Part shown: in pieces, positions 48,285 to 62,836 of the stretch
Position numbering within the stretch: position 1 is the stretch's first letter
How the letters are laid out: the number at the start of each line of letters is the position of its first letter
DNA from: Candidatus Sphingomonas phytovorans
GTDB lineage: Bacteria; Pseudomonadota; Alphaproteobacteria; Sphingomonadales; Sphingomonadaceae
NCBI GenBank assembly: GCA_029202385.1
Contig: CP119314.1
Span: 3,722,501-3,786,500 of the forward strand
Length of the DNA stretch: 64,000 nt
Reading direction: 5' to 3'
Made by a program: the position numbers and the translations under genes
The notes under the pieces: model-generated
What the model saw: the letters and a program-made list of their open reading frames with translations, nothing else
Told to the model about the DNA's origin: nothing
The model's database searches: none

Positions 48285-48713
48285 CGGCGACATTTGTTCA
48301 ACATAGCCGCTGTTTTCCAACAGTCGTTTTTTCTTCCGCTGCTATGTTTGATTCTGGGGGCGGATTTCCCATTCGACGCCAGCAACTGCCGGCCGTTACG
48401 CTGTTACGGACAACAGCGGAAGAATCGGCCAAATCTGCCCTGTGACAGCCACGATTTCTCCTGACGACAGCTAAAAATCGTCCGCTATTTCTTGCCACGA
48501 TGAGAAGGAACCGGAGGGCGCGGGAACGCTCCCTCCGGCGCCATGATGGAGTGATCACCGGACGCGTTGAATCGACGAAAATCGCCGTGCTGACGATGGC
48601 CGCTCTTGCAGTTCTGCCGCAGAGAGCGGCCATTTCCTCAGACCGGGCGATATTCCCGGGTGCCCGCTCGCCCTCGGGTGACCTCGAACGGGGGCACTTT
48701 CTTTCGCGACGGC
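48285..48713. other. Gene-free interval, 429 bp
   Basis: Between pgeF and the beta-helix gene, which converge here. No frame has convincing coding character. It is more AT-rich than the flanks, contains repeat copy A (listed separately) and an extra motif CCGCTGTTTTCCAACAG at 48308-48324, and near 48500-48540 a GGAGGG...CCCTCC hairpin (48514-48537 approximately). The functional content is unknown. Confidence 0.6.
48334..48421 (+). repeat. Repeat copy A (about 88 bp, inverted ends TTCCGCTG...CAGCGGAA)
   Basis: Begins TTCCGCTGCTAT and ends ACAACAGCGGAA, so its ends are inverted repeats of each other. It is preceded by a run of six T. The first 30 bases closely match the reverse complement of copy B near 61.6 kb, and so do the last 20. 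No open frame inside. It may be a miniature mobile element or a pair of protein-binding boxes. Confidence 0.65.
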
Positions 48714-49862
48714 CTAGAAGCCGAGACAGTTGCGAAACAGAACACCGGAACCACTGCCATTAAAGGCACCGGCCGTGCGGTTTCCACGCAGATCAGTGCC
48801 GCAAACGAGCGCGTCTCCGGTGAATGTACCCCCGAAAACAATCCCGTATTTCTGATTGTTGACATCGCCGCCATAGCCGCCGCTTCTGCCGCCGGTGAAC
48901 ACGACGCCGGTTCCGCCTATGATGTTCGCGCCGTAGGTCTCGGCCGCTCCAAGCGCTGCATTGCCCAGGAAGGAAGCATTGACAAACTGGACGTCACGCA
49001 CGTTCCCGATCACCATCCCATGACCGAGATTCTTCTCGGAGCGCAGGTTCGAGAATTGCAAATTCTGCGTCTGGCTACCGTCGATGATCAGGCCCCGCAT
49101 ATTTCCGAAGCCGATGCGGCTACCGTTCCAATTGACGGTAGTGATGCGGCCGCTCGTCCCACTGTCAAAGACTACACCATCAGATACCGAGCTGTCGAAG
49201 TCACAAGAGTCGATCCACAGATCGGTAACATATTGGCTCGCGGCGGGAGTTACACGAAGACCATAGGACGCCCGCTGCGAAACACATTTACCCAGCCATG
49301 TTGCGTCGGTCTGAGTGATGAGGAATGCGATCGTGCCGCCCCCCGCATCATTCTTATAGGTGGTGCAGGTATCGAGATACTGATTGCCTCCACCGTTGAT
49401 GGCAAAGGCGGTGCTGCGGTGATCACTGATATCGATATTACGCAACCGGCAGGCGCGATTGTCACCCTGGAGGACGACTCCTTGGAAAGGGCTGTATATC
49501 CACAGATTCTCGAGCAGAATTGCGCTTTGCCCATCGATACGGATCGCTGCGCCGGCCGTCACCGTACCACTGAAATCGAGCGCCATGTCCCTCACGCCGC
49601 CACTCGTGAAAGGGGTTGCGGCAAAGAATTTGATCATGTCGTCGGTGGTGTTCGTGGAGAGGATCCGGGTCGCCCCAGTGCCTTCCCCGACCAACGTCAC
49701 GTTGGCCGACGAGATCGTCAGCGTTCCCGTAATTTTATAGGTCCCCGCCGGAAAGGAGATCATACCCCCGGTCGGGGTGCTCGCAGCAATCGCATTTCTG
49801 ATCGCGACCGTGTCGTCCGCAATGCCATTGCCTACCGCCCCGTAGCTAAGCACCGAAATCAT
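48714..49862 (-). CDS. Right-handed beta-helix protein, Pectate_lyase_3 (tailspike-like)
   Basis: 382 aa. MISVLSYGAVGNGIADDTVA followed by IRNAIAASTPTGGMISFPAG is the hallmark start of Pectate_lyase_3 proteins (phage tailspikes, EPS depolymerases, glucan-modifying enzymes), and the rest is a regular beta-helix with repeated Asn/Gly turns (NIDISDHRSTAF, NLRSEKNLGHGMVI). No signal peptide, transmembrane segment or assembly domain. Base composition is visibly lower in GC than neighbouring genes (many ATA, TTA, AAT codons), suggesting recent transfer. Ribosome site CGAGGAGATAACGA precedes the ATG. No phage structural genes nearby. Confidence 0.82.
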   Translation of the reverse strand: MISVLSYGAVGNGIADDTVAIRNAIAASTPTGGMISFPAGTYKITGTLTISSANVTLVGEGTGATRILSTNTTDDMIKFFAATPFTSGGVRDMALDFSGTVTAGAAIRIDGQSAILLENLWIYSPFQGVVLQGDNRACRLRNIDISDHRSTAFAINGGGNQYLDTCTTYKNDAGGGTIAFLITQTDATWLGKCVSQRASYGLRVTPAASQYVTDLWIDSCDFDSSVSDGVVFDSGTSGRITTVNWNGSRIGFGNMRGLIIDGSQTQNLQFSNLRSEKNLGHGMVIGNVRDVQFVNASFLGNAALGAAETYGANIIGGTGVVFTGGRSGGYGGDVNNQKYGIVFGGTFTGDALVCGTDLRGNRTAGAFNGSGSGVLFRNCLGF

Positions 49863-49882
49863 TCGTTATCTCCTCGCAGGAA

Positions 49883-49902
49883 GTTGGAGGCTCCCCTCCA
49901 AC
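49883..49902 (-). other. Small hairpin in the leader of the beta-helix gene
   Basis: GTTGGAG and CTCCAAC (7 bp, 6-base loop) about 20 bases upstream of the ATG on the minus strand. It could be a regulatory hairpin or a terminator for transcripts coming from metZ's side; no T-run. Confidence 0.3.
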
Positions 49903-50093
49903 GAACAAAAGGAGAACAAATAAAATCCTACATTGCAACCCTCCCTCTCGAGCTCAGGAGGCAGAGCTGCTTTTACGGGTTGCCCGAATGATGGTTCGTT
50001 ATCCGCGAACGGCTCTTGCCGTCGCGCAACAAGGTTTCAAGTGTGACTATCTCGCGCTAGGACGGCGCACCCCCTCTCTCCCAGGACGTATCC

Positions 50094-51422
50094 ATGGCGA
50101 TCAAGAACGAAGACGAAGCCGATCTGACCGGCGTCGCGCCGCGCACCAAGCCCAAGCCGCCGATCGAGAAGATCGGCGACCGCAAGCTGAAGCCATCGAC
50201 GCTGATGATGGGCCATGGCTATGATCCGATGCTGTCGGAAGGGTCGCTGAAGCCGCCGATCTTCCTGACGTCGACCTTCGTCTTCCCCAATGCCGCGGCG
50301 GGCAAGCGCCATTTCGAGGGCGTGACCGGCAAGCGCCCGGGCGGCGCCGAGGGCCTGGTCTATTCCCGCTTCAACGGGCCGAACCAGGAGATCCTCGAGG
50401 ACCGTCTCGGCATCTGGGAAGATGCCGAGGATGCCCTCGCCTTTTCCTCGGGCATGTCGGCGATCGCCACCCTGTTCCTGTCGATGGTCAAGCCGGGCGA
50501 CACGATCGTCCATTCGGGCCCGCTCTATGCCGCGACCGAGACGCTGATCGCGCGTATCCTCGGCCGGTTCGGCGTTCACTGGCTCGACTTCCCGGCGGGC
50601 GCGACCCGCGAGGAGATCGACGCGGTGCTGGGCAAGGCGGCGAGCGGCCGGGTCGCGCTGATCTATCTCGAAAGCCCGGCCAACCCGACCAACGCGCTGG
50701 TCGACATCCAGGCGGTCGCCGCCAGCCGCGACGCGATCTTCAAGAACGCAGCGGAAAAGCCGCCGATCGCGATCGACAACACGTTCCTCGGCCCGCTCTG
50801 GCTCAAGCCGCTCGAGCATGGCGCCGACATCGTCGTCTATTCGCTGACCAAATATGCCGGCGGCCACAGCGATCTCGTCGCGGGCGGCGTGCTGGGATCG
50901 AAGGAGCACATCAACACCATCCGGCTGATGCGCAACACGATCGGCACGATCTGCGACCCGCATACCGCGTGGATGCTGATGCGCAGCCTCGAGACGCTCG
51001 AACTGCGCATGAGCCGCGCTGGCGAGAATGCGGTGAAGGTGTGCGAGTTCCTGCGCAGCCATCCCAAGGTGGAGCGGGTCGGCTATCTCGGCTTCCTCGA
51101 GGACACGCCGGGCATGGAGCGCCAGGCCGATATCTATCGCCGCCACTGCACCGGCGCGGGATCGACCTTCTCGCTGATCGTGAAGGGCGGCGAGAAGGAA
51201 GCGTTCGCCTTCCTCGATGCGCTGAAGATCGCCAAGCTCGCGGTCAGCCTGGGCGGCACCGAGACGCTGGCCAGCCACCCGGCGGCGATGACTCATCTTT
51301 CGGTGCCCGATGCGCGCAAGCAGGCGCTGGGCATCACCGACAATCTGGTGCGTATCTCGATCGGCGTGGAGGATGCCGACGATCTGATCGCTGACTTCAA
51401 GCAGGCGCTGGACGCGATCTGA
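50094..51422 (+). CDS. Cystathionine gamma-synthase family PLP enzyme (metZ-like)
   Basis: 442 aa. Cys/Met-metabolism PLP-dependent enzyme: FSSGMSAIATLFLSMVKPGD, SGPLYAATETLIARILGRFG, PPIAIDNTFLGPLWLKPLEH and VYSLTKYAGGHSDLVAGGVL with the PLP-binding Lys. The N-terminal 45 residues are an acidic/basic extension seen in alphaproteobacterial relatives. It could be cystathionine gamma-synthase, O-succinylhomoserine sulfhydrylase or a methionine gamma-lyase; sequence alone does not decide. CAGGACGTATCC precedes the ATG. A rearranged fragment of the same gene is found at about 58.1 kb. Confidence 0.88.
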   Translation: MAIKNEDEADLTGVAPRTKPKPPIEKIGDRKLKPSTLMMGHGYDPMLSEGSLKPPIFLTSTFVFPNAAAGKRHFEGVTGKRPGGAEGLVYSRFNGPNQEILEDRLGIWEDAEDALAFSSGMSAIATLFLSMVKPGDTIVHSGPLYAATETLIARILGRFGVHWLDFPAGATREEIDAVLGKAASGRVALIYLESPANPTNALVDIQAVAASRDAIFKNAAEKPPIAIDNTFLGPLWLKPLEHGADIVVYSLTKYAGGHSDLVAGGVLGSKEHINTIRLMRNTIGTICDPHTAWMLMRSLETLELRMSRAGENAVKVCEFLRSHPKVERVGYLGFLEDTPGMERQADIYRRHCTGAGSTFSLIVKGGEKEAFAFLDALKIAKLAVSLGGTETLASHPAAMTHLSVPDARKQALGITDNLVRISIGVEDADDLIADFKQALDAI

Positions 51423-51480
51423 CCCCCTCTTCCGTGATACCGGAACTCTCGACGAGTTCGGGACAGGCTTGTTCGGGTGT

Positions 51481-51506
51481 CCACTGCTCCGCCTGCGGAG
51501 CGGTGG
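51481..51506 (+). terminator. GC-rich hairpin downstream of metZ-like gene
   Basis: CCACTGCTCCGC and GCGGAGCGGTGG form a 12-bp stem with one T-G pair and a two-base loop, about 60 bases after the stop. No T-run follows, so termination is uncertain. Confidence 0.4.
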
Positions 51507-51626
51507 GCGCCGGAGCAAATCCGGGCTATGGTGATACCGGACGGCAATTGCTGCCAAGACCATAGTTGGGCGATTTCAGCCATGCAGCCACCTGATGCGC
51601 TGCATGGGAAAGCCGTCATTGTCAAA

Positions 51627-51686
51627 AGCCTGTCGTTGATAAGGCTGAGGTCGTGAGTTCAGTCCTCGCCGACAGCACCCTTTTTT
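51627..51686 (+). other. tRNA 3'-half-like fragment followed by T-run
   Basis: AGCCT/AGGCT (51627-51631, 51642-51646) resembles an anticodon stem but with a 10-base loop. GTGAG-TTCAGTC-CTCGC (51653-51669) is a perfect-looking T-arm with a TTCAGTC loop. CGACAGC-A-CC (51670-51679) looks like an acceptor strand plus discriminator, then TTTTTT. No matching 5' acceptor or D-arm lies at the right distance, so this is at most a remnant, as left when an element integrates in a tRNA gene. Confidence 0.35.
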
Positions 51687-51728
51687 AAGCCGACTGGCCA
51701 CATGATGCGAATCGCCCCGCGCGTTATA

Positions 51729-51759
51729 ACTTGCATACAAGTATGATTCGTACAATCAT
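51729..51759. promoter_or_regulatory. Two adjacent inverted repeats upstream of the RiPP precursor
   Basis: ACTTG-CATA-CAAGT (51729-51742) and ATGATT-CGTAC-AATCAT (51743-51759) abut each other in AT-rich DNA about 170-195 bases before the precursor ATG. They look like operators for a dimeric regulator. No regulator gene lies in the locus. Confidence 0.35.
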
Positions 51760-51924
51760 CAAGGGCAATATATGAAAAAAGGGCTTCCAGCGGGCCTACC
51801 TATATCCTATAGCGCCAACCGCATATAGTATATCAACCCCGCAAAGTTAATAGCACACTTGGCCGTGACTGACTTTTATATTCAAACGACCCACGGCTTT
51901 TCTTAAACAATAGATGGATGCGAT

Positions 51925-52092
51925 ATGTCCGATACCAAGATTCCGACCGGGACCGTCTCTGACAAATTCGATATCAACCTCGTGCGCAAGGCCTGGATCG
52001 AGCCGGCATATCATACGCTCGATATTCGGGAGACCGCGAATACCGCGAACATCTGCGTTCGCAACGACGGGTTCTCTTTCAGCGATTGCTGA
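51925..52092 (+). CDS. Lasso-peptide-like RiPP precursor with two core cysteines
   Basis: 55 aa. The leader contains KAWIEPAYHTLDIRET, which fits the pattern [YW]xxPx..xLD[VI]xxT of leaders recognised by PqqD-type (B1) proteins; the known paeninodin leader has a very similar LDVxxT ending. The C-terminal part is ANTANICVRNDGFSFSDC. If cleavage leaves Thr40, Ala41 or Asn42 first, Asp48 closes a ring of 9, 8 or 7 residues, all seen in lasso peptides. Cys44 would be in the ring and Cys55 at the end of the tail, so a ring-to-tail disulfide is possible. GGA lies 7 bases before the ATG. The gene is on the strand opposite to the modifying genes and converges with the cyclase gene. Confidence 0.72.
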   Translation: MSDTKIPTGTVSDKFDINLVRKAWIEPAYHTLDIRETANTANICVRNDGFSFSDC

Positions 52093-52222
52093 ATTTTCTG
52101 GTTCGTTGACTCGGACCTAGAGTTGTTTCCAGCTCCGCTGGACCGGTACCAGCCCACTCCTCCACCCCGCCACCCATAGAGTGCTGCCGCCGGGTGGCCG
52201 GGAGCGGGCCGGCACCGCCACC

Positions 52223-52241
52223 GTTTCAGCTTTGCTGAAAC
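52223..52241. terminator. Hairpin between precursor and cyclase genes
   Basis: GTTTCAG and CTGAAAC (7 bp, 5-base loop) lie about 130 bases after the precursor stop and 20 bases after the converging cyclase stop. No long T-run. Next to it, TCATTCGCGC is present twice (52251-52260 and 52267-52276). Confidence 0.4.
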
Positions 52242-52263
52242 AGGCACCGATCATTCGCGCGCC

Positions 52264-54198
52264 CTAATCATTCGCGCCATCGAAACGCCGCATGAAGCGG
52301 CCCATGGCCAGCGTCTGCAGCGTGAGCCCCTGACGTTCCGCCAGCAGCCGATCGGTCACGATCGTGTCCACTGGCCATTCTTCCCGGCTTGCGCCGGCGC
52401 GGAGCCGGTCAAGATCGATAAATGGCGCCGCATCGGGATGATCGACCAGCCTGTCGAGCTCGTCGGCGATATCGCTCCGTGCGGCATTGGCTGCGTGGCA
52501 CCAGTTCGCCGCCTGGCGCCCACGTCGACGCTCGGCCAGCAGTTCGGGCGGCAGGATGCCCTGCATGGCGCGACGCAGCAGCCAGCGCTTGCGGCCGCGG
52601 TTGAGAAATTGCTCCTCGGGGATCGCAAAGCAGAATTCCATCAGCCGACGGTCGGCGGTAGGATCGCGCAAATCGATGTCGTGCGCGGCCAGCATGCCGC
52701 CCGTGACCCAGGACGCATCGTAGCGCGCCATGCGCAGGCACAGGTCACGCCGGCTTGCGGATTGAGTGGCGAAGGTCCGCACCGCCGGGCTCCTGAGCAC
52801 TTGTTCCAGCTTGTACTCGGCAACCGCGGACGGCTTGATCGGCCAGAGACGCGCCAATGCCATGTCGCTGCGCCCGAATCTACGCAGCACATATTGGCGC
52901 ATTTCCAAATTCACATAGGGGTCTAGGATCAGGCGCAGCAGCGCCAGTCGCGTCATGCCGCCCGCACGCAGGCCCGGCACGTGCCGCGCAAAGCCGACCC
53001 AGTCGAAGCGGCGGAGGAGCGCCGGCAACAGCATCATCCCGTCATAGCTGATGGTCTGGTTGCCCATGCCCCCCGCCAGCATCACGCGGATGCCACGCTG
53101 CCGGGCCTGGTCGTGCAGTTCCTCCCACCAGCCGGCATTGTTCACATCGCCGCGCGGTTGTTCATAATCGCGCGCATACCGGTCGAGCGCGTTCAGATCC
53201 CAGCGCTCGGGCCAGTTCACGAGCACATGCTCGACATTTGGGAAGCGGCTGGCGACCAGCGTGGCGAGCGGGCCTTCATCGCCCAGCTCGCGGTCGACCG
53301 AGGGCCCGGTCCAGCCCGGCGGCGGCACGGCCGTGAAGGCGGTCAGGCGCTCGCCCCGCGCCGCCAGCAGACGCGCCGCGGTGGCCGTGACGGTCGAACT
53401 GTCCCAGCCCGCGCTCAAGTGACTGCCGACCGGGTGGATACCGCGCATGCACGCCGTCACGGCCTGGTCGAAGACCTCGCGGAACGCCTCGACATAGTCC
53501 TCGTCGCGCGGGAAGGTTCGCGCCGGCAGGTTCTCCGGCTGCCAATAACGCTCTGCGCGCCACGCATCCGCCGTGACCGTCACCGATCCGCCGGCGGGCA
53601 CGCGGTGAACACCCTGGAAAGCGCTGCTGGTCGGCTGGCGCGGCAGCGAGGCGGTGATCGCGATCAGATGGTGATGGTCGAGCGCGCGGGGAATGTCGGG
53701 CAGCGCATAGAGGGCGGAGGCCATTGTCGCGAACAGGCAACGGCCCTGGCCATGCCAGAAAAAGAGCGGGCGAGTACCGAGATGGTCGCGGGCGAGAAAC
53801 AACCGGCGCTCGGTGCGATCCCATACCGCAAAGGCGAAGGCGCCGGTCAGATGGTCGAGGCAGCGGGCCTGCCAGCGCTCCCATGCGGCCAGCAGGAACC
53901 AGCTGTCAGAGCAGCCCGAGGCACCGGCATCGAGCGCGAGCGCGCGCTGCAGCTCGGCGCGATTGTCGAGACGGACATCGGCCACCAGCACATAGCGGCC
54001 ATCGGCACTGATACGCGGCTGGCGATCGGAATCGTCCTCAGCGAACAGCAAGGTCGCGCGGCGGCCGAACGAGACCGATCCGCCATCCCACAGTTCCTCG
54101 CCATCGCGCCCATGCCGCGCGAGCATCGCGGTGGCGCGCGCGACAATCTCGCCCGTCGGGGCGCCGCGCCAATCGGCCATTCCCGCGATCGCCGTCAT
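52264..54198 (-). CDS. Asparagine-synthetase-like cyclase (lasso C protein)
   Basis: 644 aa. N-terminal glutamine-amidotransferase-like domain starts MTAIAGMADWRG; the catalytic Cys2 is absent, as in lasso cyclases, so ammonia release is not expected. RDHLGTRPLFFWHGQG follows. The C-terminal synthetase domain has the PP-loop GSHLSAGWDSSTVTATA (SxGxDS type) and GIRVMLAGGMGNQTISYDG. In lasso pathways this enzyme adenylates the ring Asp/Glu and joins it to the N-terminus of the core. It is the last gene of the minus-strand operon, about 40 bases after the PqqD gene. Confidence 0.86.
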   Translation of the reverse strand: MTAIAGMADWRGAPTGEIVARATAMLARHGRDGEELWDGGSVSFGRRATLLFAEDDSDRQPRISADGRYVLVADVRLDNRAELQRALALDAGASGCSDSWFLLAAWERWQARCLDHLTGAFAFAVWDRTERRLFLARDHLGTRPLFFWHGQGRCLFATMASALYALPDIPRALDHHHLIAITASLPRQPTSSAFQGVHRVPAGGSVTVTADAWRAERYWQPENLPARTFPRDEDYVEAFREVFDQAVTACMRGIHPVGSHLSAGWDSSTVTATAARLLAARGERLTAFTAVPPPGWTGPSVDRELGDEGPLATLVASRFPNVEHVLVNWPERWDLNALDRYARDYEQPRGDVNNAGWWEELHDQARQRGIRVMLAGGMGNQTISYDGMMLLPALLRRFDWVGFARHVPGLRAGGMTRLALLRLILDPYVNLEMRQYVLRRFGRSDMALARLWPIKPSAVAEYKLEQVLRSPAVRTFATQSASRRDLCLRMARYDASWVTGGMLAAHDIDLRDPTADRRLMEFCFAIPEEQFLNRGRKRWLLRRAMQGILPPELLAERRRGRQAANWCHAANAARSDIADELDRLVDHPDAAPFIDLDRLRAGASREEWPVDTIVTDRLLAERQGLTLQTLAMGRFMRRFDGAND

Positions 54199-54240
54199 GC
54201 GTGGTAGGGTGCCGCTCCGTCCGATCCGCGGCCTGCCCGG

Positions 54241-54531
54241 CTAGTCATTCTCGATGTCGATCAGGTCGTCCTTCAGCCAATTCTGAAAAAGGCTGGTCAC
54301 CTGCTCGCGGCAAATCGCCTCGTCCACCTCGAATTCGGCGCGCAACGCCGTCACCATCTCGTCGACGGTGCGGGGTTCATCGAGCAACTCCCACGCGACC
54401 GCCGCCGACTCGTTTAACGACAGGTAGCGGTCACCCGGCACATCGAGGATCGCGATCCCGCTGCCCAGCGTGGCGGTAAGCATGCCGTGACGGCGGGATA
54501 CACGGTCGCCGGGTGAAATGGTGTGCGTCAT
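54241..54531 (-). CDS. PqqD-family leader-binding protein (lasso B1/RRE)
   Basis: 96 aa. MTHTISPGDRVSRRHGMLTA, AILDVPGDRYLSLNESAAVA and WELLDEPRTVDEMVTALRAE are typical of PqqD-like RiPP recognition elements, which bind the YxxP-type leader and present the peptide to the other enzymes. The start overlaps the kinase stop (ATGA). Confidence 0.88.
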   Translation of the reverse strand: MTHTISPGDRVSRRHGMLTATLGSGIAILDVPGDRYLSLNESAAVAWELLDEPRTVDEMVTALRAEFEVDEAICREQVTSLFQNWLKDDLIDIEND

Positions 54532-55472
54532 GGAGTCTCGATCGGCGCGGGAATAAGGGTTGCCAGATGCCCTTCGAGCAAGTCGAGCGCGGCGTCAAAC
54601 TTGTCCAGCGTCCAGGGCCGGTCGAACCAGTAGAGCTCAACACGGTTGGCCAGCTCCACCATTATCCGGAAGCTGCGATCGGCGAGCCCGGCGGTGAGCA
54701 TCGACGCGGTCAGGCGCACGGCATCAACCAGCGGGGCGAGCGCGTCGACTGGCGCAATCCGCTGGATCCGCGGCTCCGCACCGGACGCGAGCCGGCGCGG
54801 CAGATAGAGCCGGCGCAGCGGGAGGTCGGTTCCCGCATCGGCGGGCACGGGGCGGAAGCTGCTCTTGCCATCGGCTTGCCGCGTGCCGGCGCGGAGGTGA
54901 TAGGCGGACCCCAGATGTGCGGCTGCATCGTCGCGCAAACGGAGATAATCGGGGCCGCGGCCGACGCGCATGCCCGTTGGGCCCTCGATACGGGCGAGGC
55001 AGAGATCGTCGCCGTGCCAGGCATAGTCGCGCAGCGCCAGCGCCGCCGCCAGGGTCGATTTGCCCGCGCCGGAGGCACCCGCGAACCCGACGGCATTGCC
55101 ACCCACCGCGATGGTCGCTGCGTGCAGTGGCAGATAGCCGCGCTGAAACCCGATCATCGACAGGCCGAGATTGGTGATGATGTTGACCAGTGCGCCGCGA
55201 TCATGGTCGGGATCGGGCCGCACCACGATTCGGCGGCCATCGGTAATCCACAGCCGGGCGATGCCGGGAATCTCGCGCAGATAGGCATTGGCGGCGAACT
55301 GGCGCATCGGCTCGTCGATATCGGGCGCGGCGATCCGCTCCGGCACCTCGCCAAGCTCGACGATCACCGGGTCGGGAACGGGGCCGGAATCGCGCTCGAC
55401 CACGCCGTCGAAGCGGAACGACGATCGCACCGCCAGCCCATGGATCATATAATGATGATGCTGTCCGGTCAT
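54528..55472 (-). CDS. HPr kinase-like protein (RiPP tailoring kinase type)
   Basis: About 314 aa from MTGQHHHYMIHGLAVRSSFR. IAVGGNAVGFAGASGAGKST is the Walker A loop of HprK-type kinases and YAWHGDDLCLARIEG the following acidic region. In paeninodin-type lasso clusters, a homologue phosphorylates the C-terminal Ser of the peptide. Here the precursor ends in Cys but has Ser51 and Ser53 in the tail. Starts four bases after the Dsb-fusion stop and overlaps the PqqD start, so it is co-translated. Confidence 0.83.
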   Translation of the reverse strand: MTGQHHHYMIHGLAVRSSFRFDGVVERDSGPVPDPVIVELGEVPERIAAPDIDEPMRQFAANAYLREIPGIARLWITDGRRIVVRPDPDHDRGALVNIITNLGLSMIGFQRGYLPLHAATIAVGGNAVGFAGASGAGKSTLAAALALRDYAWHGDDLCLARIEGPTGMRVGRGPDYLRLRDDAAAHLGSAYHLRAGTRQADGKSSFRPVPADAGTDLPLRRLYLPRRLASGAEPRIQRIAPVDALAPLVDAVRLTASMLTAGLADRSFRIMVELANRVELYWFDRPWTLDKFDAALDLLEGHLATLIPAPIETP

Positions 55473-55476
55473 GTCG

Positions 55477-56631
55477 TCACCGTTGCGCTTTTTCCTGGCG
55501 CAGTTGCGCATCCAGGATGTCGAATTCGGGGCTGGCGGGAACGCGGCGCCCGTCGATGACCAGCGCGGGGATGCCCGCCACGCCGGCCTGCTCGGCATTC
55601 AGGCGCGAGGTCAGCATCATGGTGCGCAGCGCGGTGTCGGCCAGGCAATGCCGCGCTTGCTGTGGATCGAGCCCGGCGAGCGCGGCCAGGCGCGGCACGG
55701 GATCCTTGGCGCCGACCCAACTGGTCTGCGCCGCGAGCATCGCCCTGATTACATCGATATACCGCGACGCGGGCGCGCAGCGCGCCAGCATCCCCGCGGT
55801 GAGCGCCTGTGCGTCGAGCGGATAATCGCGCACGACATAGCGTACCTGGCCGGTCGCCACCCATTTGTCGCGGAACGCGGGGAACACCCTGGCCGACCAT
55901 TGGGCGCAATGCGGACAAGTGAGCGAGATATATTCGACCAGCAGGATCGGCGCCTTGTCAGATCCCAGGGTGCGGTCGTTCGCGGTGATCGGGGGGAGCG
56001 ACACCGTGGTGACAGGACGGGACCGCGCGATCAGCGCGACCGGCAGGATCGCCACCAGCAAGGCCGCGCAGGCCAGCAGGCGCGTGCCGCGCGGAAACGC
56101 CGGTGGCGTGGTTGCCGCCCGTCCCTGCCAGGGCCAGCCGATGCTCAGTGCGAGCAGGCCGAGCGCCATCAAGGCTGACCAGCCAGCGATCGACACGCCG
56201 AACAGAGTGAAGCCCGCAACGTCGCACCGCGCGCGATGCTTACCCAAGGCGGCGCTGATCTCGGCATTGTCCGTCGCGACGCCGCACCAGCCGGGCGCGT
56301 CCAGCCAGCGATGCTCGAACGCGACCTGCAATCCGGCGAGCAATACGCCCACGAACAGGAGGAGCAGAACCGCGCCGTGGGCGAAGCGCGACAGGCCGGC
56401 ACCAGGGCGAAGGGCGACGATTGCCGCGATCATCGCCACCAACGCGAACGGCACCATTCCGGCCTTGCCCAGGATCGTCGTGCCGGGCCCCAGATGGCGC
56501 TGCATCCACCACTGAACGAACAGGGCAAACAGCGCGCCGGCGGCGATCGCCAGGGGCCGCGCGCGCGCAACGCCGCAGATGTCGGTCAAGGTTCGATTCA
56601 CTGCTGGCAAGGGAGCGTCGCGGTAGAACAA
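55477..56631 (-). CDS. DsbB-like/DsbA-like fusion: membrane disulfide-bond protein
   Basis: About 384 aa. The N-terminal half has four membrane helices and, between helices three and four, RWLDAPGWCGVATDNAEISA...RARCDVAGFTLFGVSIAGWS, matching the second periplasmic loop (Cys pair) and the LGxSxAGW helix of DsbB. The first DsbB Cys pair (CxxC between helices one and two) is absent. A fifth helix (near residue 190-212, TRLLACAALLVAILPVALIA) leads to a DsbA-like thioredoxin domain: PILLVEYISLTCPHCAQWSA with CPHC, LARCAPASRY, and cis-Pro in GIPALVIDG. It sits inside the RiPP operon. The start reads TTG (56631) with no good ribosome site; GTG at 56601 (VNRTLTD) is an alternative. Confidence 0.84.
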   Translation of the reverse strand: MFYRDAPLPAVNRTLTDICGVARARPLAIAAGALFALFVQWWMQRHLGPGTTILGKAGMVPFALVAMIAAIVALRPGAGLSRFAHGAVLLLLFVGVLLAGLQVAFEHRWLDAPGWCGVATDNAEISAALGKHRARCDVAGFTLFGVSIAGWSALMALGLLALSIGWPWQGRAATTPPAFPRGTRLLACAALLVAILPVALIARSRPVTTVSLPPITANDRTLGSDKAPILLVEYISLTCPHCAQWSARVFPAFRDKWVATGQVRYVVRDYPLDAQALTAGMLARCAPASRYIDVIRAMLAAQTSWVGAKDPVPRLAALAGLDPQQARHCLADTALRTMMLTSRLNAEQAGVAGIPALVIDGRRVPASPEFDILDAQLRQEKAQR

Positions 56632-56807
56632 CAGGACAGGTTTGCAAATGCGGGAAATGATGAAGGTCGGGCACAGCCACTGTGACCAAACCCGTTATCA
56701 TGGTTACCGCAATGCGCGGCGCGCGGACGGCGATACGCATGGACGGCGTCGCACGACCGCGCGAGCACATGCGGCTGGAAGAAAGCGCGCCATTCATGAC
56801 TGGTCAT
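56598..56807 (-). CDS. Possible small Cys-rich ORF coupled to the nucleotidyltransferase gene
   Basis: 69 codons starting MTSHEWRAFFQPHVLARSCD. Its ATG overlaps the nucleotidyltransferase stop (ATGA) and its end overlaps the Dsb-fusion start. It has six Cys (for example LSCCSTATLPC). No family is recognised. It fills the only gap in the operon, where other lasso clusters usually have the B2 peptidase, but it does not look like one. It may be spurious. Confidence 0.25.
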   Translation of the reverse strand: MTSHEWRAFFQPHVLARSCDAVHAYRRPRAAHCGNHDNGFGHSGCARPSSFPAFANLSCCSTATLPCQQ

Positions 56808-58024
56808 GCTTCGCCTCGTCCGTTCGACGCCCGCGCCGCATTGCCGATCTTGCGGAAGAGATAGGCCACCGGCCGTCGCACGAACAGAAACGGGATCATG
56901 ACGTCCGGCATGTTCCAGTCCCGCCAATCCTTCTCCCGGTAGAAGAGCCGGCCGAGTTCGATCGCGACATAGCGCGGCCGGCGCTTGAGCAGCAGGCGGT
57001 AGAGCGTCGGGCGCAGCGCATTGCCCGCTGCCTGGATGGTCTCCCGGCTCTGCCGCGCAGTGCTGATCGCCAGTGCCATGTCAGCCAGCCGCACGCCATG
57101 GCGATCCTTGCCGGCTTCCTCCACCAGCGCGGCCGGCATGCCGGCCGCAATAGCCTCGATCAGCAGGATCCAGCTATGCACCAAGCTGGTCGTGCCCATG
57201 CGGCGCGCCGTGGCGCGGAGCGCTTCGATCTGCGCGGCGTCGGCCCGGCCCAGCAGCATTGCCAGGTCGGCGGCCCATTTCCAGCGCTCCCAGCCATGCC
57301 GTGCGGCATGCACGCCGAGATAATAAGGCAGATCAGCGCCACCGAGCGTCGAGACGGTGAAATCGCCCATCGCCACCGTGCCGCGGCGCTGCCACAGAGA
57401 CGCGAAATCGGCCTCGACGATTGCGGTATTCGCGGACAATTTGTGATGCCGCTCGATGGTGATCCCGCTCGCTGGATGGACGAATTTCTCCTCATGCGTG
57501 AAGCGCGCACGCACGCTGCGCTGGCGTTCGGTGAGGTGCGCGGGGATAGCGGGCGCCTCGCATCCCAGATCGCGCAGCAGCCGATCGAGCCTGTCCGCCG
57601 ATTGCGGATCGACCAGCAAGTCAAGGTCATGCGCCTCGCGGATCAACGGGTCGCCATATAGCTGGACCGAGAGGCAAACCCCCTTGAGCACGATCAGGTC
57701 GAGGCCTTGCTGCGCGGCACGTCGGGAGATTTCGCGAAGCAGCCTGAGTTGTTCGATAGCGCGGACGATGCAAAGCCGCTCGGCTTCCTCATAAGCCGCG
57801 CGCTGGGAGGCGTCGACGTCCGGCCACCCTGCCGCGCGCAAGGCCATCGCCGTCATCGGGCGGAGTTTATATTGCCATGCCCAGTGATGCAGCGCCTTGT
57901 GATCCAGGTCGACAAACCATTCGGCCGGCCAGTGACGGTTCGCGCCTATCGACCAGTTCGTTCCGGCGATCCTGCCGATGAGTCGTTGTTCGACGCTCAT
58001 ATCGGCAGCGAGACGGTCAATCAC
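56804..58024 (-). CDS. Nucleotidyltransferase family protein (NTP_transf_5 type)
   Basis: About 406 aa. LIVLKGVCLSVQLYGDPLIR and EAHDLDLLVDPQSADRLDRL are the GG/S-type nucleotidyltransferase motif of PF14907; FTHEEKFVHPASGITIERHH follows. Such proteins accompany HprK-like kinases and PqqD-like proteins in many RiPP clusters. The start is GTG 58024 or ATG 58000 (MSVEQRLIGRIAG). It is the first gene of the operon. Confidence 0.82.
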   Translation of the reverse strand: MIDRLAADMSVEQRLIGRIAGTNWSIGANRHWPAEWFVDLDHKALHHWAWQYKLRPMTAMALRAAGWPDVDASQRAAYEEAERLCIVRAIEQLRLLREISRRAAQQGLDLIVLKGVCLSVQLYGDPLIREAHDLDLLVDPQSADRLDRLLRDLGCEAPAIPAHLTERQRSVRARFTHEEKFVHPASGITIERHHKLSANTAIVEADFASLWQRRGTVAMGDFTVSTLGGADLPYYLGVHAARHGWERWKWAADLAMLLGRADAAQIEALRATARRMGTTSLVHSWILLIEAIAAGMPAALVEEAGKDRHGVRLADMALAISTARQSRETIQAAGNALRPTLYRLLLKRRPRYVAIELGRLFYREKDWRDWNMPDVMIPFLFVRRPVAYLFRKIGNAARASNGRGEA

Positions 58025-58071
58025 GAAGCCGCCATAGCCAACCCATTCGCAGAGGCCAACCTGTTCAGGTG

Positions 58072-58200
58072 CCCGGCCAACCCGACAACACCATCCGGCT
58101 GATGCGCAACACGATCGGCGTGGAGGATGCTGACGATCTGATCGCTGCCTTCAGGCGGGTGCTGGATGCGATCCGACTGCGGGATCAGGTTTTGAGCTAA
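58072..58200 (+). pseudogene. Rearranged fragment of the metZ-like gene
   Basis: 58072-58086 is identical to bases 50675-50689 of the intact gene. 58087-58119 is identical to 50913-50945. From 58112 to 58173 it continues as the gene's 3' end (51358-51419), with 6 differences in 59 positions by my count over 51361-51419. The second junction lies in the 8-base sequence CGATCGGC, present at both sites in the intact gene (50938-50945 and 51358-51365), and keeps the frame. The normal stop is changed to CGA and the frame runs to TAA at 58198. Clearly a remnant with internal deletions. Confidence 0.88.
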
Positions 58201-58239
58201 GGAGAAATGAGGGGGAGACGCTATTGCCGGCCCCCGTCA

Positions 58240-58995
58240 TCAGCCCTGGCGCTTCAACACCCAGTTCACCCCATTCTCCACCTGCCTCAGGAACCACGGG
58301 TCCTGATACGCCTCCACCGTGTGTCCCATCGCGGTGTAGAATACGCGTCCGCCCTCGAATTCGTGCACCCAGGACACCGGATTGGGATTGGCGTCGGGCT
58401 CGCCGATCGACGCCGGATCGACCGTCGAGAGCAGGTGCATCCGCGGATCGTAATCGTCGAAATAATACCATTCGTCGGCATGCCGGCTGACCGGTGCCAG
58501 CCCCTTGTTCGCCGGATGCTTCAGGTCGGCCAGCGTCACCACCCCTTCGGGCGTTCCCTTGGGGTGGCGGATGAAGCGGGCACCGAACAGCTTGCCGTAC
58601 CATGGCCAGCTATAGTGCGAATCCGCCGCGGCATGGATGCCGACGACCCCACCCCCGCGATGGACGAAGGCCTGGAACGCGTCGCGCCGCGTGCCGGTCA
58701 GCCATTCCGAGGTCGGATCGTCATGCTTGCTGGTGTTGCTGAGCAGGATGATCGCCGCCACGTCCTTCAGCCCGTCATTGCTGAACACCGCCGGATCGGC
58801 GCTCGCGATCATCGTCACGCCCATCTTCTTGCCCAGCGCCTGCAGCGCGACGACGCCCGGCTCGATCGAGGCGTGGCGATAGCCGGTCGAATAGGAAAAG
58901 ATCAGGACGCGCGGCGCGTCCTTCGCCCAGGCAGCGCCGCCCATCAGGGTCATGGCACCGGCCAGGATCGCCAGCAGGCGAAGCAGATATCTCAT
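58240..58995 (-). CDS. ThuA domain-containing protein
   Basis: 251 aa with signal peptide MRYLLRLLAILAGAMTLMGG ending near AWAK. VLIFSYSTGYRHASIEPGVV, AAIILLSNTSKHDDPTSEW, AFVHRGGGVVGIHAAADSHY and FYTAMGHTVEAYQDPWF match ThuA (trehalose-utilisation type, glutamine-amidotransferase-like fold). GGAGGATCGACG precedes the ATG. Role unknown; such proteins are often near GMC oxidoreductases in sugar-modifying loci, which is the case here. Confidence 0.9.
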   Translation of the reverse strand: MRYLLRLLAILAGAMTLMGGAAWAKDAPRVLIFSYSTGYRHASIEPGVVALQALGKKMGVTMIASADPAVFSNDGLKDVAAIILLSNTSKHDDPTSEWLTGTRRDAFQAFVHRGGGVVGIHAAADSHYSWPWYGKLFGARFIRHPKGTPEGVVTLADLKHPANKGLAPVSRHADEWYYFDDYDPRMHLLSTVDPASIGEPDANPNPVSWVHEFEGGRVFYTAMGHTVEAYQDPWFLRQVENGVNWVLKRQG

Positions 58996-59123
58996 CGTCG
59001 ATCCTCCCCACGGTCCACGCCTGTGCGTGATACCGGTAACGCGAAGGGCTGGACAAGCCCCGCCCCGCCCGGCAGTCTGGCGTGCAAGCGGGAAGCGCAC
59101 AAGCGCTCTGATGCGATGAGAGG

Positions 59124-59693
59124 ATGATGGAGAGGATGATGGAGACGGCCGAAAGCCGAGCGTTCGATCGCCGGGCACTCCTGCGAAGCGCGATCCTGCT
59201 GGTCGGCGGCACCCTTGCCGGCCTGCCCGACCTCGCTGTTGCGATCGCTCCCACCAAAGCCTTTTTCACGCCGGCCGAGCGCGCCCTGCTCGATGCCGTC
59301 TGCGGCGCGCTGATCCCGCGCACCGACACACCCGGCGCGATCGAGGCCGGCGTGCCCGGCTTCATCGACGCGATGATGAGCAACTGGGCCGCGCCGGGCA
59401 CCGCCGCCGGCTTCCGCGCCGTGCTGGCGAAGATCGATGCCGAGGCCCGCGCCGCGACCGGCAAGGGCTTCGCTGCGCTGAGCACCGGTCAGCGCGACAC
59501 AAGGCTCGCCGCCTTCGACGCCGCCGCCTTCGCGGCGAAGGACCAGGCCTGGCGCCGCTTCAGGAATCTCGCCCTGACCGGCTATTATCTGTCGGAGGCC
59601 GGCGCGACGCGGGAGCTTCGGTACGAATTGTCCCCGGGGGTCTGGGAACCGGGCATGAAGATGGGGCCCGACACGCGCGCCTGGGCAGTCTGA
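59124..59693 (+). CDS. Gluconate 2-dehydrogenase subunit 3 family protein
   Basis: Up to 189 aa. FDRRALLRSAILLVGGTLAG is a Tat-like signal. FFTPAERALLDAVCGALIPR and TDTPGAIEAGVPGFIDAMMS are signatures of the small subunit of membrane-bound FAD gluconate or related sugar dehydrogenases. Several ATGs are possible (59124, 59127, 59136, 59139); the last has GGAGAGG at the best spacing. It is followed within about 20 bases by the GMC oxidoreductase, its expected partner. Confidence 0.87.
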   Translation: MMERMMETAESRAFDRRALLRSAILLVGGTLAGLPDLAVAIAPTKAFFTPAERALLDAVCGALIPRTDTPGAIEAGVPGFIDAMMSNWAAPGTAAGFRAVLAKIDAEARAATGKGFAALSTGQRDTRLAAFDAAAFAAKDQAWRRFRNLALTGYYLSEAGATRELRYELSPGVWEPGMKMGPDTRAWAV

Positions 59694-59715
59694 CCAACAT
59701 CATCGGGGAATGAGC

Positions 59716-61404
59716 ATGAGCTTCGACGCGATCGTCATCGGATCGGGGATGAGCGGCGGCTGGGCCGCGAAGGAATTGACCGAACGCGGGCTCAAGACGC
59801 TGGTCATCGAGCGCGGCCGGCATATCGAGCATGGCAGCGACTATACCGACTCGCTCTCGCCCTGGGAGATCGACAATTACGGCCAGGTCTCGGAGGCCGA
59901 GATCGAGGCGGATTATGAGGTGCAGAGCAAATGCTACGCCTTCTCCGCCGCCAACAAGCATTTCTGGGCGAAGGACAGCGACCACCCCTATTCGACGCCG
60001 GAGGACAAGCCCTTCTACTGGATTCGCGGCTATCATCTCGGCGGCCGCTCGCTGATGTGGGCGCGGCAATCCTATCGGCTGAGCGAGATGGATTTCGAAT
60101 CCAACGCGAAGGACGGCTACGGCACCGACTGGCCGATCCGTTATGCCGACATGGCACCGTGGTACGATCATGTGGAAACCTTCGCCGGCATCTCGGGCTC
60201 GGCCGAGGGTCTCCCGCAATTGCCCGACGGCAAATATCTTCCCCCCATGGCGCTGACCCCGGTCGAGGCGGAATTCGGCCGCAAGATGCAGGCTGCCTTC
60301 CCGACCCGCCGGCTGATCACCGGCCGCTGCGCGCATCTGACCGCGCCGACCCCGGAGCATGAGGCGCTTGGCCGCGGCCCCTGCCAGTACCGGTCGCTGT
60401 GCGAGCGCGGCTGCTCCTATGGCGCCTATTTCTCCAGCCTCAGCGCGACGCTGCCCGCCGCGAAGAACACCGGCAACCTCACCATCGTCACCGATGCCAT
60501 CGCCCACAGCATCATCCATGACCCGAAGACCGGCAAGGCGTCGGGCGTGCGCTTGATCGACCAGAACACGAAAGCCGGCACCGTTTACGAAGCAAAGCTG
60601 ATATTCCTCTGTGCCTCCACCATCGGCACCGCGCAGATCCTGCTGACCTCGACCTCGGACGCCTTTCCGACCGGCCTGGCCAACCGCTCCGACATGGTCG
60701 GGCGCAACCTGACCGATCATATCAGCGGCATGGGCGCGAGTGGGACCTATCCCGGCTTCGACGACATCTATCATCATGGCCGCCGCCCCAATGGCTTCTA
60801 CGTGCCGCGCTATCGCAACGTGACCGAGCCGGGCGACGGGTACACGCGCGGCTTCGGCTTCCAGGGCCGGGGGCTGCGAAGCGGCTGGCAGCGCGGCATC
60901 GGAGAACCCGGCACCGGCGCGGCGCTGAAGGCAAGGCTGCGTAAACCAGGGCCCTGGACGCTCAACCTGAACGGCTTCGGCGAAATGATGCCGCGTCCGG
61001 AGAACCGCGTGACCCTCCATCCGACCCGCACAGACAAATGGGGCATCCCGATCCCGCATATCGACGTGGAACTCGGGCCGCAGGACAGGAAGATGATCGA
61101 CCAGGCCAGTGCCGATGCCCGGACGATGCTCGAAATGGCCGGCTGCACCGACATCGTCCAGTACAAGCATTATGGTGGCCTCGGCCTCGGCATCCACGAA
61201 ATGGGCACCGCGCGCATGGGCAAGGACCCGAAGACCTCGGTGCTCAACGGGCACAACCAGGCGCATGACGTGCCGAACCTGTTCATCACCGACGGGTCGT
61301 GCATGGCCTCGTCGGGCTGCCAGAATCCGTCGCTCACCTATATGGCGATGTCGGCGCGCGGCGCGCATCATGCGGTCGAACTCCTGCGCGCCGGCAAGGC
61401 CTGA
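59716..61404 (+). CDS. GMC family FAD oxidoreductase
   Basis: About 562 aa from MSFDAIVIGSGMSGGWAAKE, the FAD-binding Gly-rich loop. IRGYHLGGRSLMWARQSYRL, RSLCERGCSYGAYFSS, FLCASTIGTAQILLTSTSDA and the C-terminal MASSGCQNPSLTYMAMSARG are typical of the GMC group that works with a gluconate 2-dehydrogenase-type subunit 3. Oxidises a sugar or alcohol in the periplasm; no cytochrome subunit is visible nearby. ATG at 59716 has GGGGAATGAGC upstream; an ATG at 59710 is also possible. Confidence 0.93.
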   Translation: MSFDAIVIGSGMSGGWAAKELTERGLKTLVIERGRHIEHGSDYTDSLSPWEIDNYGQVSEAEIEADYEVQSKCYAFSAANKHFWAKDSDHPYSTPEDKPFYWIRGYHLGGRSLMWARQSYRLSEMDFESNAKDGYGTDWPIRYADMAPWYDHVETFAGISGSAEGLPQLPDGKYLPPMALTPVEAEFGRKMQAAFPTRRLITGRCAHLTAPTPEHEALGRGPCQYRSLCERGCSYGAYFSSLSATLPAAKNTGNLTIVTDAIAHSIIHDPKTGKASGVRLIDQNTKAGTVYEAKLIFLCASTIGTAQILLTSTSDAFPTGLANRSDMVGRNLTDHISGMGASGTYPGFDDIYHHGRRPNGFYVPRYRNVTEPGDGYTRGFGFQGRGLRSGWQRGIGEPGTGAALKARLRKPGPWTLNLNGFGEMMPRPENRVTLHPTRTDKWGIPIPHIDVELGPQDRKMIDQASADARTMLEMAGCTDIVQYKHYGGLGLGIHEMGTARMGKDPKTSVLNGHNQAHDVPNLFITDGSCMASSGCQNPSLTYMAMSARGAHHAVELLRAGKA

Positions 61405-61440
61405 GACCGATTCAAATCGCGACGCGACCGTGGCAGCGAG

Positions 61441-61480
61441 GAGCGGCCGGGCGCCAGCCGGTGCCCGGCCGCTCTTTCTT
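61441..61480 (+). terminator. Intrinsic terminator of the GMC oxidoreductase gene
   Basis: GAGCGGCCGGGC and GCCCGGCCGCTC pair perfectly over 12 bp around a 10-base loop, followed by TTTCTT. Confidence 0.85.
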
Positions 61481-61559
61481 ATTGTCGGAATCTGTTGGAG
61501 GGTTTTTCGACGTCCTCAGCGGAAAAAGAATGCGCGTTCGCCCGCATTCGCCCCCCATT

Positions 61560-61650
61560 TTCCGCTGTTATTCGATAACAGGGAAAACAGCAGTCAAGCA
61601 CCTGTAAAACAGACAGGAATCCGGGCCCGAAATCCAACATAACAGCGGAA
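61560..61650 (-). repeat. Repeat copy B (about 91 bp, inverted ends TTCCGCTGTTAT...ATAACAGCGGAA)
   Basis: TTCCGCTGTTAT at 61560-61571 and ATAACAGCGGAA at 61639-61650 are perfect 12-bp inverted repeats. Read on the minus strand, its first 30 bases (TTCCGCTGTTATGTTGGATT...) and preceding T-run match copy A at 48334. The two copies lie in opposite orientation, both in gene-free DNA. Confidence 0.7.
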
Positions 61651-61720
61651 GAAAAAAGAAAGCGCGTTTCCGCCCTTTTGTCGGATCGTCGCGGCTACGC
61701 GATGGGGACGCGGGCCTCGC

Positions 61721-62836
61721 TCACGGCTTGGCTGCCGGCCGGTCGAACCCGGCAACGACATCGCCGAGCGTCTGCATCAGCGCCGCGTTGCGTTTGTCCG
61801 GCGTGTTGCCAAGACGCACCACCACGATCCCGCGACCCGGCCCGCTATCGGGGCTGGCGATCACCAGTTGCCCGAGATGACCGTCAGCCGCGACCGCGCT
61901 CGCCGGGCCCTTGCCGGGGAACAGCGTCGCCTTGCCCTCGGCGCCGCCGGGCCGGTTGAGCCAGGTCTGCGCGCCATATTCGGCGTTGGTCGGCGACGGC
62001 GTCTTCATGAAGGCCAGCCACGCCGGGTCGACTACCTGCCGACCGTCGCCCGCCTTGCCGTCGAGCAGCAGACCGCCGATCCGGCCCCAGTCGTCGAGGC
62101 TCATATGCAGGATCGATCCGCCGATCTGAGTCCCCGTGCCGTCATATTCGAGCACAGCGCTGGTGATGCCGGCCGGCCTGAACAGCCGGGCCTGCGCAAA
62201 GTCGGTATAGAGTGTCGCGCGCGTCTTCGGATCGTGGCTGTCGGTCAGCGTGCGCGCAACGATCTCGGCAAGGATGATCGTGGTCAGCGAGCTGTAGCGG
62301 AATGTGGTGCCGGGCTTCGTCTGGAGCGGATGGTCGATCGCCGCCGCCGCCATCGCGCCGGTATGGCTGACGAACAGGGTCTGGTTCGTATCCGACTTCT
62401 CGACCGGATCGCCCATTTCGATATGCTGGAGGCCGGAGGACATCTGCAGCAGATGCCGCAGCGTGATCGCAGCGCGAGGGTCGCCCGGCTTGTGCCATTC
62501 GGCGATCGGCGCCGGCGCATCGAGCTTCAGCCGGCCGTCTGTCACCAGCGCACCGACGAGCATGGCCGTCACTGTCTTCGCCATCGACCAGCTGATGAAG
62601 CGGTTCCCGTCAGAATAGCCCGGCGCATAGGCCTTGAATGCCGGGCACCCGTCCGCCGTCACCAGCACGGCGCGGGTTTCGGGATGGTCGGAGAACAACA
62701 ACCGGATCGGTGCCATCGACTTTGAAAGGTCGGCGCCCCGGCAGGCGGTGATGCTGAAGGTCGACGCGAGCGGCGGCGCATCGGTGCTCCCCAGGAGGAT
62801 GGGCACCATCGCGAGAAAGGAGGCCTTGCGTAGCAT
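61721..62836 (-). CDS. Serine hydrolase of the beta-lactamase family (class C/esterase-like)
   Basis: About 371 aa from MLRKASFLAMVPILLGSTDA, a signal peptide. ISWSMAKTVTAMLVGAL holds the SxxK motif (Ser nucleophile), YSSLTTIILAEIV stands where the YxN/YxS motif is expected, GHLGQLV near the end replaces the KTG/HxG box. Such proteins act as esterases, D-aminopeptidases or beta-lactamase-like enzymes. Longer in-frame starts (62863, 62878) exist but would overlap the divergent small gene. Confidence 0.87.
   Translation of the reverse strand: MLRKASFLAMVPILLGSTDAPPLASTFSITACRGADLSKSMAPIRLLFSDHPETRAVLVTADGCPAFKAYAPGYSDGNRFISWSMAKTVTAMLVGALVTDGRLKLDAPAPIAEWHKPGDPRAAITLRHLLQMSSGLQHIEMGDPVEKSDTNQTLFVSHTGAMAAAAIDHPLQTKPGTTFRYSSLTTIILAEIVARTLTDSHDPKTRATLYTDFAQARLFRPAGITSAVLEYDGTGTQIGGSILHMSLDDWGRIGGLLLDGKAGDGRQVVDPAWLAFMKTPSPTNAEYGAQTWLNRPGGAEGKATLFPGKGPASAVAADGHLGQLVIASPDSGPGRGIVVVRLGNTPDKRNAALMQTLGDVVAGFDRPAAKP

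Follow-up and report, generated by a model that had tools for sequence, protein, structure and literature searches.

The window analyzed here is a 64,000-nucleotide stretch of Candidatus Sphingomonas phytovorans (contig CP119314.1, positions 3,722,501–3,786,500), and it contains a 6.8 kb island (51423–58200) that carries a candidate lasso-type cluster for a ribosomally synthesized and post-translationally modified peptide (RiPP). The island comprises genes for a precursor peptide (A), a macrolactam cyclase (C), a RiPP recognition element (RRE; B1), an HprK-like kinase (K), a DsbB/DsbA-like fusion protein (DSB), and a nucleotidyltransferase-like protein (N). The source genome is a single contig of 5.45 Mb, with the precursor at 3.77 Mb. 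Judged against one genome of the same species, G619, this is a presence/absence island, because the G619 flanks align to the window (50010–51422 at 97%; 58201–62602 at 96%) while 51423–58200 has no counterpart. Between the two aligned flanks G619 has 356 bp, largely unmatched to the window, and a profile search of G619 found no precursor match. This comparison sets the bounds of the A, C, B1, K, DSB, and N cluster. The island's right edge (58086–58177, plus strand) holds remnant pieces of a gamma-lyase gene, copied from the gene at 50094–51422: 58086–58119 equals 50912–50945 (100%), and 58099–58177 resembles 51345–51423 (86%). The locus is real, well bounded, and unusual.

Five of the genes lie on the minus strand, transcribed in the order N (58024–56804), DSB (56631–55477), K (55472–54528), B1 (54531–54241), and C (54198–52264). 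The DSB stop is 4 bp from the start codon of K (the ATG at 55472, picked by gene spacing), K and B1 overlap (ATGA), and 42 bp separate B1 from C. The precursor gene (51925–52092) is on the plus strand, opposite to this operon and convergent to C. None of the six open reading frames (ORFs) has an internal stop. Scans for promoters and terminators, RNA families, and tRNAs gave nothing informative.

Every gene proposed in the initial annotation was recovered from the ORF list and from Pfam domains. The 644-residue cyclase matches PF00733 (Asn_synthase), PF13537 (GATase), and, as its best NCBIfam match, the lasso cyclase family NF033535, at 310 bits against a cut-off of 525. Its N terminus, MTAIAG, has Thr rather than Cys after Met, in agreement with the annotated loss of the glutaminase Cys. 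B1 (96 residues) is PqqD-like, as had been proposed (PF05402, 61 bits; NF033536, 47.8 bits, cut-off 80), and N is an NTP_transf_5 transferase (PF14907, 129 bits), which bears out the annotated nucleotidyltransferase. The HPr-kinase-like label for K stands in part: HprK-type (TIGR04352, TIGR04355) and P-loop matches are present, but they are weak, with TIGR04352 at 33.7 bits against a cut-off of 200.

The precursor gene, defined by its ORF, protein relatives, and profile matches, encodes 55 residues ending in ANTANICVRNDGFSFSDC. The predicted leader (residues 1–38; 51925–52038) contains an RRE motif, W24xxP27, and Thr37 at position –2, from which the boundary with the core was placed. The predicted core, NTANICVRNDGFSFSDC (52039–52089), has Cys at core positions 6 and 17 and Asp at core 10; at 17 residues, it is longer than the 14–16 first expected. 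W24, P27, L32, D33, R35, E36, and T37 are invariant in a seven-sequence alignment, so that the leader motif for a PqqD-type protein holds up across relatives. A protein search returned P0001 (95%) and P0002 (83% over 65%, with a diverged N terminus). By its sequence, the precursor is not a chance ORF, because relatives with diverged N termini keep the RRE motif and the core. Profile matches occur in 20 of the 295 genomes of the genus and in 5 of the 397 of the family (G000 being counted in both), and in 79 members of a large protein set, two of which carry Sphingomonas in the source name. The precursor alignment found no match among genome contigs and viral contigs, and neither did P0073, a diverged relative, among plasmids and viral contigs.

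The window precursor and these 79 proteins form a family of 80, in which cores were cut 12 residues past the P of W..P. The –2 residue is Thr in 77 and Ser in 3, and the acidic residue is at core 8 in 69 and at core 10 in 11 (P0073 has Glu7 besides Asp10). The core holds one Cys in 72 members, two in 4, three in 1, and none in 3. The two-Cys precursors are the window, its near-copy P0001, and the diverged P0002 and P0073; their Cys spacing is fixed while other core residues vary, and 9 of 17 core residues, both Cys among them, are shared between P0073 and the window (counted by eye). A predicted ring Cys and a last-residue Cys, as originally proposed, are thus conserved in four precursors. C-terminal Ser occurs in 76 of the 80, and the exceptions are exactly the 4 two-Cys precursors. 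Across 23 genomic loci besides the window, not counting the weaker precursor candidates L035 (E 0.0076), L041, and L044, the acidic residue is at core 8 in 22 (L131 has Glu8 and Asp9) and at core 10 in one (L075); –2 is Thr in 22 and Ala in one; and the core has one Cys in 19, none in 4, and two in none. A cyclase lies within the stretch read in 21 of them, with none in L123 and L131 (the contigs of L114 and L129 are short, 7.2 and 10.5 kb). Since a single tail Cys dominates the family and two Cys are rare, the tail Cys seems to be the older trait, common to the family, and the ring Cys a newer one.

The single-Cys precursors (72/80; L078–L080, L118–L121, and others) mostly have their acidic residue at core 8 and a near-fixed tail, ...DC[QTS]xS. 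The lone Cys may serve in dimer formation, metal binding, or thiol chemistry. In P0047, Asp is at core 10 and there are three Cys, of which two occupy predicted core positions 1 and 2 (CCDSVPGSNDGNVDCS).

Paeninodin-type clusters consist of cyclase, RRE, kinase, and PF14907 genes plus the leader peptidase B2 (PMC13381572). The window shares with the phosphorylated lassos paeninodin and pseudomycoidin a discrete RRE, cyclase, HprK-like kinase, PF14907 protein, WxxP leader, and Thr(–2), but differs in that the island has no B2 and adds a Dsb fusion, and in that the precursor has two Cys, its Asp at core 10, and a C-terminal Cys where the phosphorylatable Ser would be. It also resembles clusters for linear polyphosphorylated peptides, which have the RRE, HprK-like kinase, and PF14907 protein and no B2; as described in PMC13381572, however, those clusters have an SpI peptidase and no cyclase, and the window is the reverse. 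No signal-peptidase match was found among the island proteins scanned. In the placement of its Cys, one in the predicted ring and one in the tail (C-terminal in the window), the precursor is like the class III lassos BI-32169 and 9401-LP1, which, as named in the literature covered, are from Streptomyces, unlike the window; the 9401-LP1 cluster is described with no genes beyond A–D (PMC9266682).

Counted from Thr(–2), the window Asp falls at core 10, outside 7–9. With cleavage at the usual site, the ring of the Asp10 group (11/80) would have ten residues; if the leader were cut two residues later, it would have eight. In the latter case cleavage would follow ETANT, an ordinary ring would join Ala41 to Asp48 (A1–D8), and the Cys residues would be at core 4 and 15. 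Natural lasso rings are given 7–9 residues in PMC8498205 and PMC10368454, and an acidic residue at core 8 is the rule in the family, both of which argue for the shorter ring. Against it, the Asp10 members keep Thr(–2) at an unchanged distance from WxxP, and a shifted cut would leave varied residues at –1 (T, F, N, G, S, C) and –2 (N, F, T, G, S, C, A). We regard the eight-residue ring as a real alternative, though the less probable one. A ten-residue ring has been made with the fusilassin enzymes, which tolerate rings of 7–10 residues (PMC13352647), and Asn at core position 1 has one precedent, metanodin (PMC12670498).

The DSB protein comprises a DsbB-like half with four transmembrane segments (PF02600, about 35.7–37.6 bits), a fifth hydrophobic segment, and a DsbA-like domain (PF13462, Thioredoxin_4, 113.5 bits). 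Its hydrophobic segments fit five membrane helices, followed by the thioredoxin-fold domain with CPHC at 239–242. As in bacterial DsbB, the second-loop Cys pair is kept (C116, C136), in the context WC...RCD..FTLFG compared with AC...RCD..WSLFG in the housekeeping protein. The window protein differs from bacterial DsbB and DsbA in that the two halves are fused, via the fifth segment, and in that loop 1 has no CXXC, a motif present in 3/3 DsbBs compared (the housekeeping one and two others). In the established DsbB mechanism, this loop-1 CXXC works with quinone. Because the DsbB half lacks it, DSB is unlikely to be a self-sufficient oxidase; a better fit is an oxidase or isomerase of DsbA type that is recharged elsewhere. 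Of the annotated DsbB/DsbA fusion, then, the domains stand, and a canonical, self-sufficient disulfide former is not supported. The thioredoxin half resembles the solved chains 3f4r, 3f4s, and 3f4t, which are of Wolbachia origin, and its CXXC region and second Cys pair align with those of 3f4s.

The distribution of this enzyme was compared across the window and the 23 other loci; P0002 (on a 626 bp contig) and P0073 (36.7 kb) are outside this set. Profiles of both window halves, run against ORFs of at least 40 residues in the stretches read, found no DsbB- or DsbA-like ORF in any of the 23. Among 24 genomes (22 precursor-positive relatives, G619, and G000), PF02600 is present in one copy in 22 and in two copies in G000 only, and G462 (82% complete) has no copy. 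In G661 and G422 the single copy is on the precursor contig and fairly close to the precursor (∼15 kb and 18 kb off), and these two score like housekeeping ones (104 and 107 bits versus 37.6 for the window half). PF13462 had no match on the contig of another precursor less than 25 kb from it. A second PF02600 copy occurs in 3 of 73 family genomes with a K match, G000, G255, and G246. The extra DsbBs of G255 and G246 were considered as unfused relatives of the fusion and rejected: they keep CXXC, and no cyclase, RRE, or kinase adjoins them in the 19 and 10.8 kb read. With the fusion as query, the matches listed for 201 genus genomes were full-length in G000 only, the others covering the thioredoxin half or part of it; genome contigs gave no relative; and of 52 plasmid records none reached 80% coverage in one place, the 20 matches listed being to the thioredoxin half only. 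The proposed link between two Cys and a disulfide enzyme is supported insofar as 0/23 other loci have either two Cys or a Dsb ORF and DSB and K are 4 bp apart, and weakened in that there is one positive locus. The case named beforehand as refuting it, a Dsb fusion kept where two Cys are lost, was not found in the 23. The idea of a dedicated enzyme is attractive but depends on a single locus and on a putative enzyme from which a defining part is missing.

A whole-genome search places no B2 in the island and the nearest PF13471 match more than 1.2 Mb away; the source genome has two such matches, at 2.41 and 4.99 Mb. All 24 genomes examined have at least one B2. It lies within 15 kb in 11 of the 23 loci, over 60 kb off on the precursor's contig in 6 (G503-C1, G422, G593, G444, G205, G587), and on other contigs only, some of them short, in 6 (G447, G661, G584, G634, G478, G065); the two loci where the stretch read holds no cyclase are those of G587 and G634. 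Since related loci without a nearby B2 recur and every genome has one, it is plausible that the leader is cut in trans, and the window is not alone in this. Pseudomycoidin, to go by the title of Zyubko 2019, is reportedly formed without leader and leader peptidase. The window's own genome has two further lasso-type loci, L035 and L036, without a nearby B2. Together with G503:C1, G422, G593, G444, and G205, where B2 is elsewhere in the genome, these suggest that leader peptidases are shared across lasso-type loci in these genomes. Mining rules that require a local B2 could miss such loci, because related loci without one recur.

We propose that the island makes a variant of the paeninodin-like lasso RiPPs in which the Cys are placed much as in class III, a tentative reading to which we assign a probability of roughly 0.45. 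The RRE would bind the WxxP leader, and a B2 peptidase from another genome locus would cut after ETA. The cyclase would then join Asn1 to Asp10 and so close a ring of ten residues, through which a tail of seven would be threaded (or a ring of 8 with a cut two residues later), and Cys6 in the ring would be joined to the C-terminal Cys17 in a class III-like ring-tail disulfide. The CPHC domain of the fusion may catalyze or proofread the Cys6–Cys17 bond outside the cytoplasm, with oxidizing power supplied from elsewhere, by the housekeeping DsbB or by oxygen, because the usual path of electrons to quinone is presumably closed to the fusion's DsbB half. In the absence of the C-terminal Ser common in the family, the kinase and transferase would act on an internal Ser or Thr, or be relics.

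Several findings weigh against this proposal. Besides the missing loop-1 CXXC and the lack of a local B2, the association of Dsb with two Cys is seen in one locus of 24, and no exporter family is present above the Pfam cut-off among the island proteins. No full-length relative of the fusion other than its near-copy P0003 was found among 8000 scored protein candidates, so the P0073 and P0002 clusters may be without a close fusion homolog, a mild argument. In the cyclase tree the window groups at 100/97 with the cyclases of L037, L038, L117, and L075, apart from a 19-row clade of the core-8/DC family; L075, with an Asp10 core, is nearest L117, whose acidic residue is that of core 8, so Asp10 does not define a separate clade of cyclases. 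In the RRE tree the position of the window is not settled. A single-sequence AlphaFold model of the fusion was set aside (pLDDT 49.8). Finally, class I lasso disulfides form without the cluster's own oxidoreductase (PMC9266682).

The last point bears on a competing view of the fusion, in which the bond forms spontaneously and the protein has its role in export, quality control, or general redox balance, an argument made for SviF. The class I clusters of sviceucin, MS-271, and aborycin carry DoxX and DsbA-like genes (PMC9266682, PMC6409603), so the earlier statement that no described lasso cluster has such an enzyme is not supported. As in the window, their lasso genes have neighbors encoding a membrane protein and a thiol oxidoreductase of DsbA type; unlike it, they have DoxX and a separate DsbA-like protein, two disulfides, and a Streptomyces host in those texts. 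Knockouts of sviF, mslE, and mslF still gave product, and sviF affects secretion (PMC9266682). These results and the absence of CXXC in the DsbB half favor a role other than disulfide formation, whereas the coupling of the fusion gene to the kinase gene (4 bp) and its occurrence, among 24 loci, in the two-Cys cluster only speak for a part in forming the bond. We consider a role apart from bond formation possible, if somewhat less probable than not.

An unthreaded product, whether a branched macrolactam or a peptide with a simple disulfide loop, is unlikely. A ten-residue ring with a short tail falls outside the natural lassos described in the literature available, and the cyclase is below the NCBIfam cut-off, but it groups with four others at 100/97, three of which (L037, L038, L117) have B2 in their loci. 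A decaying or incomplete cluster, horizontally gained without B2 and a C-terminal phosphorylation site and making nothing, is more improbable still: B2 is distant, the kinase is kept though the C-terminal Ser is absent, and gene fragments mark the island edge, but all six reading frames are intact, the core is conserved across diverged relatives, and 6/23 related loci likewise have B2 on the contig only at more than 60 kb (one of which, G587, has no cyclase in the stretch read).

For the paeninodin-like lasso with a ring-tail disulfide, a broader scenario can be drawn, which we regard as doubtful: a natural ten-residue-ring lasso subfamily, whose two-Cys branch swapped C-terminal phosphorylation for the disulfide, recruited the CXXC-less fusion, and relied on a distant B2 for leader removal. 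The way in which lasso peptides acquire their disulfides is called unknown in PMC13352647, and the cluster oxidoreductases tested so far are dispensable (PMC9266682); the window locus offers one gene and one predicted bond. A natural ring size that falls outside the 7–9 reported is a further prediction from the locus. A cluster like this one was not found in the parts available of the open-access literature on lasso Dsb-type enzymes, proteobacterial class III lassos, ten-residue rings, and trans leader peptidases.

Some further observations concern the related loci and the surroundings of the island. L035 encodes a probable lasso precursor (L035:7490–7648, minus strand) with core GKYRTVTE..., Glu8, and a C-terminal Ser; it adjoins B1, K, and cyclase genes, and the 13 kb read holds no B2. 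At least two kinase-like ORFs per locus, one of them near B1, occur in L080, L118–L121, L124–L130, and L132. Small proteins encoded near lasso loci at L126:1691–2296 and L120:16425–17072 presumably resemble phage tail-collar proteins. The adjoining stretch of the window at 48367–50009 is, like the island, mostly unaligned to G619, and it contains a pectate-lyase-like ORF (48714–49862, minus strand; PF12708).

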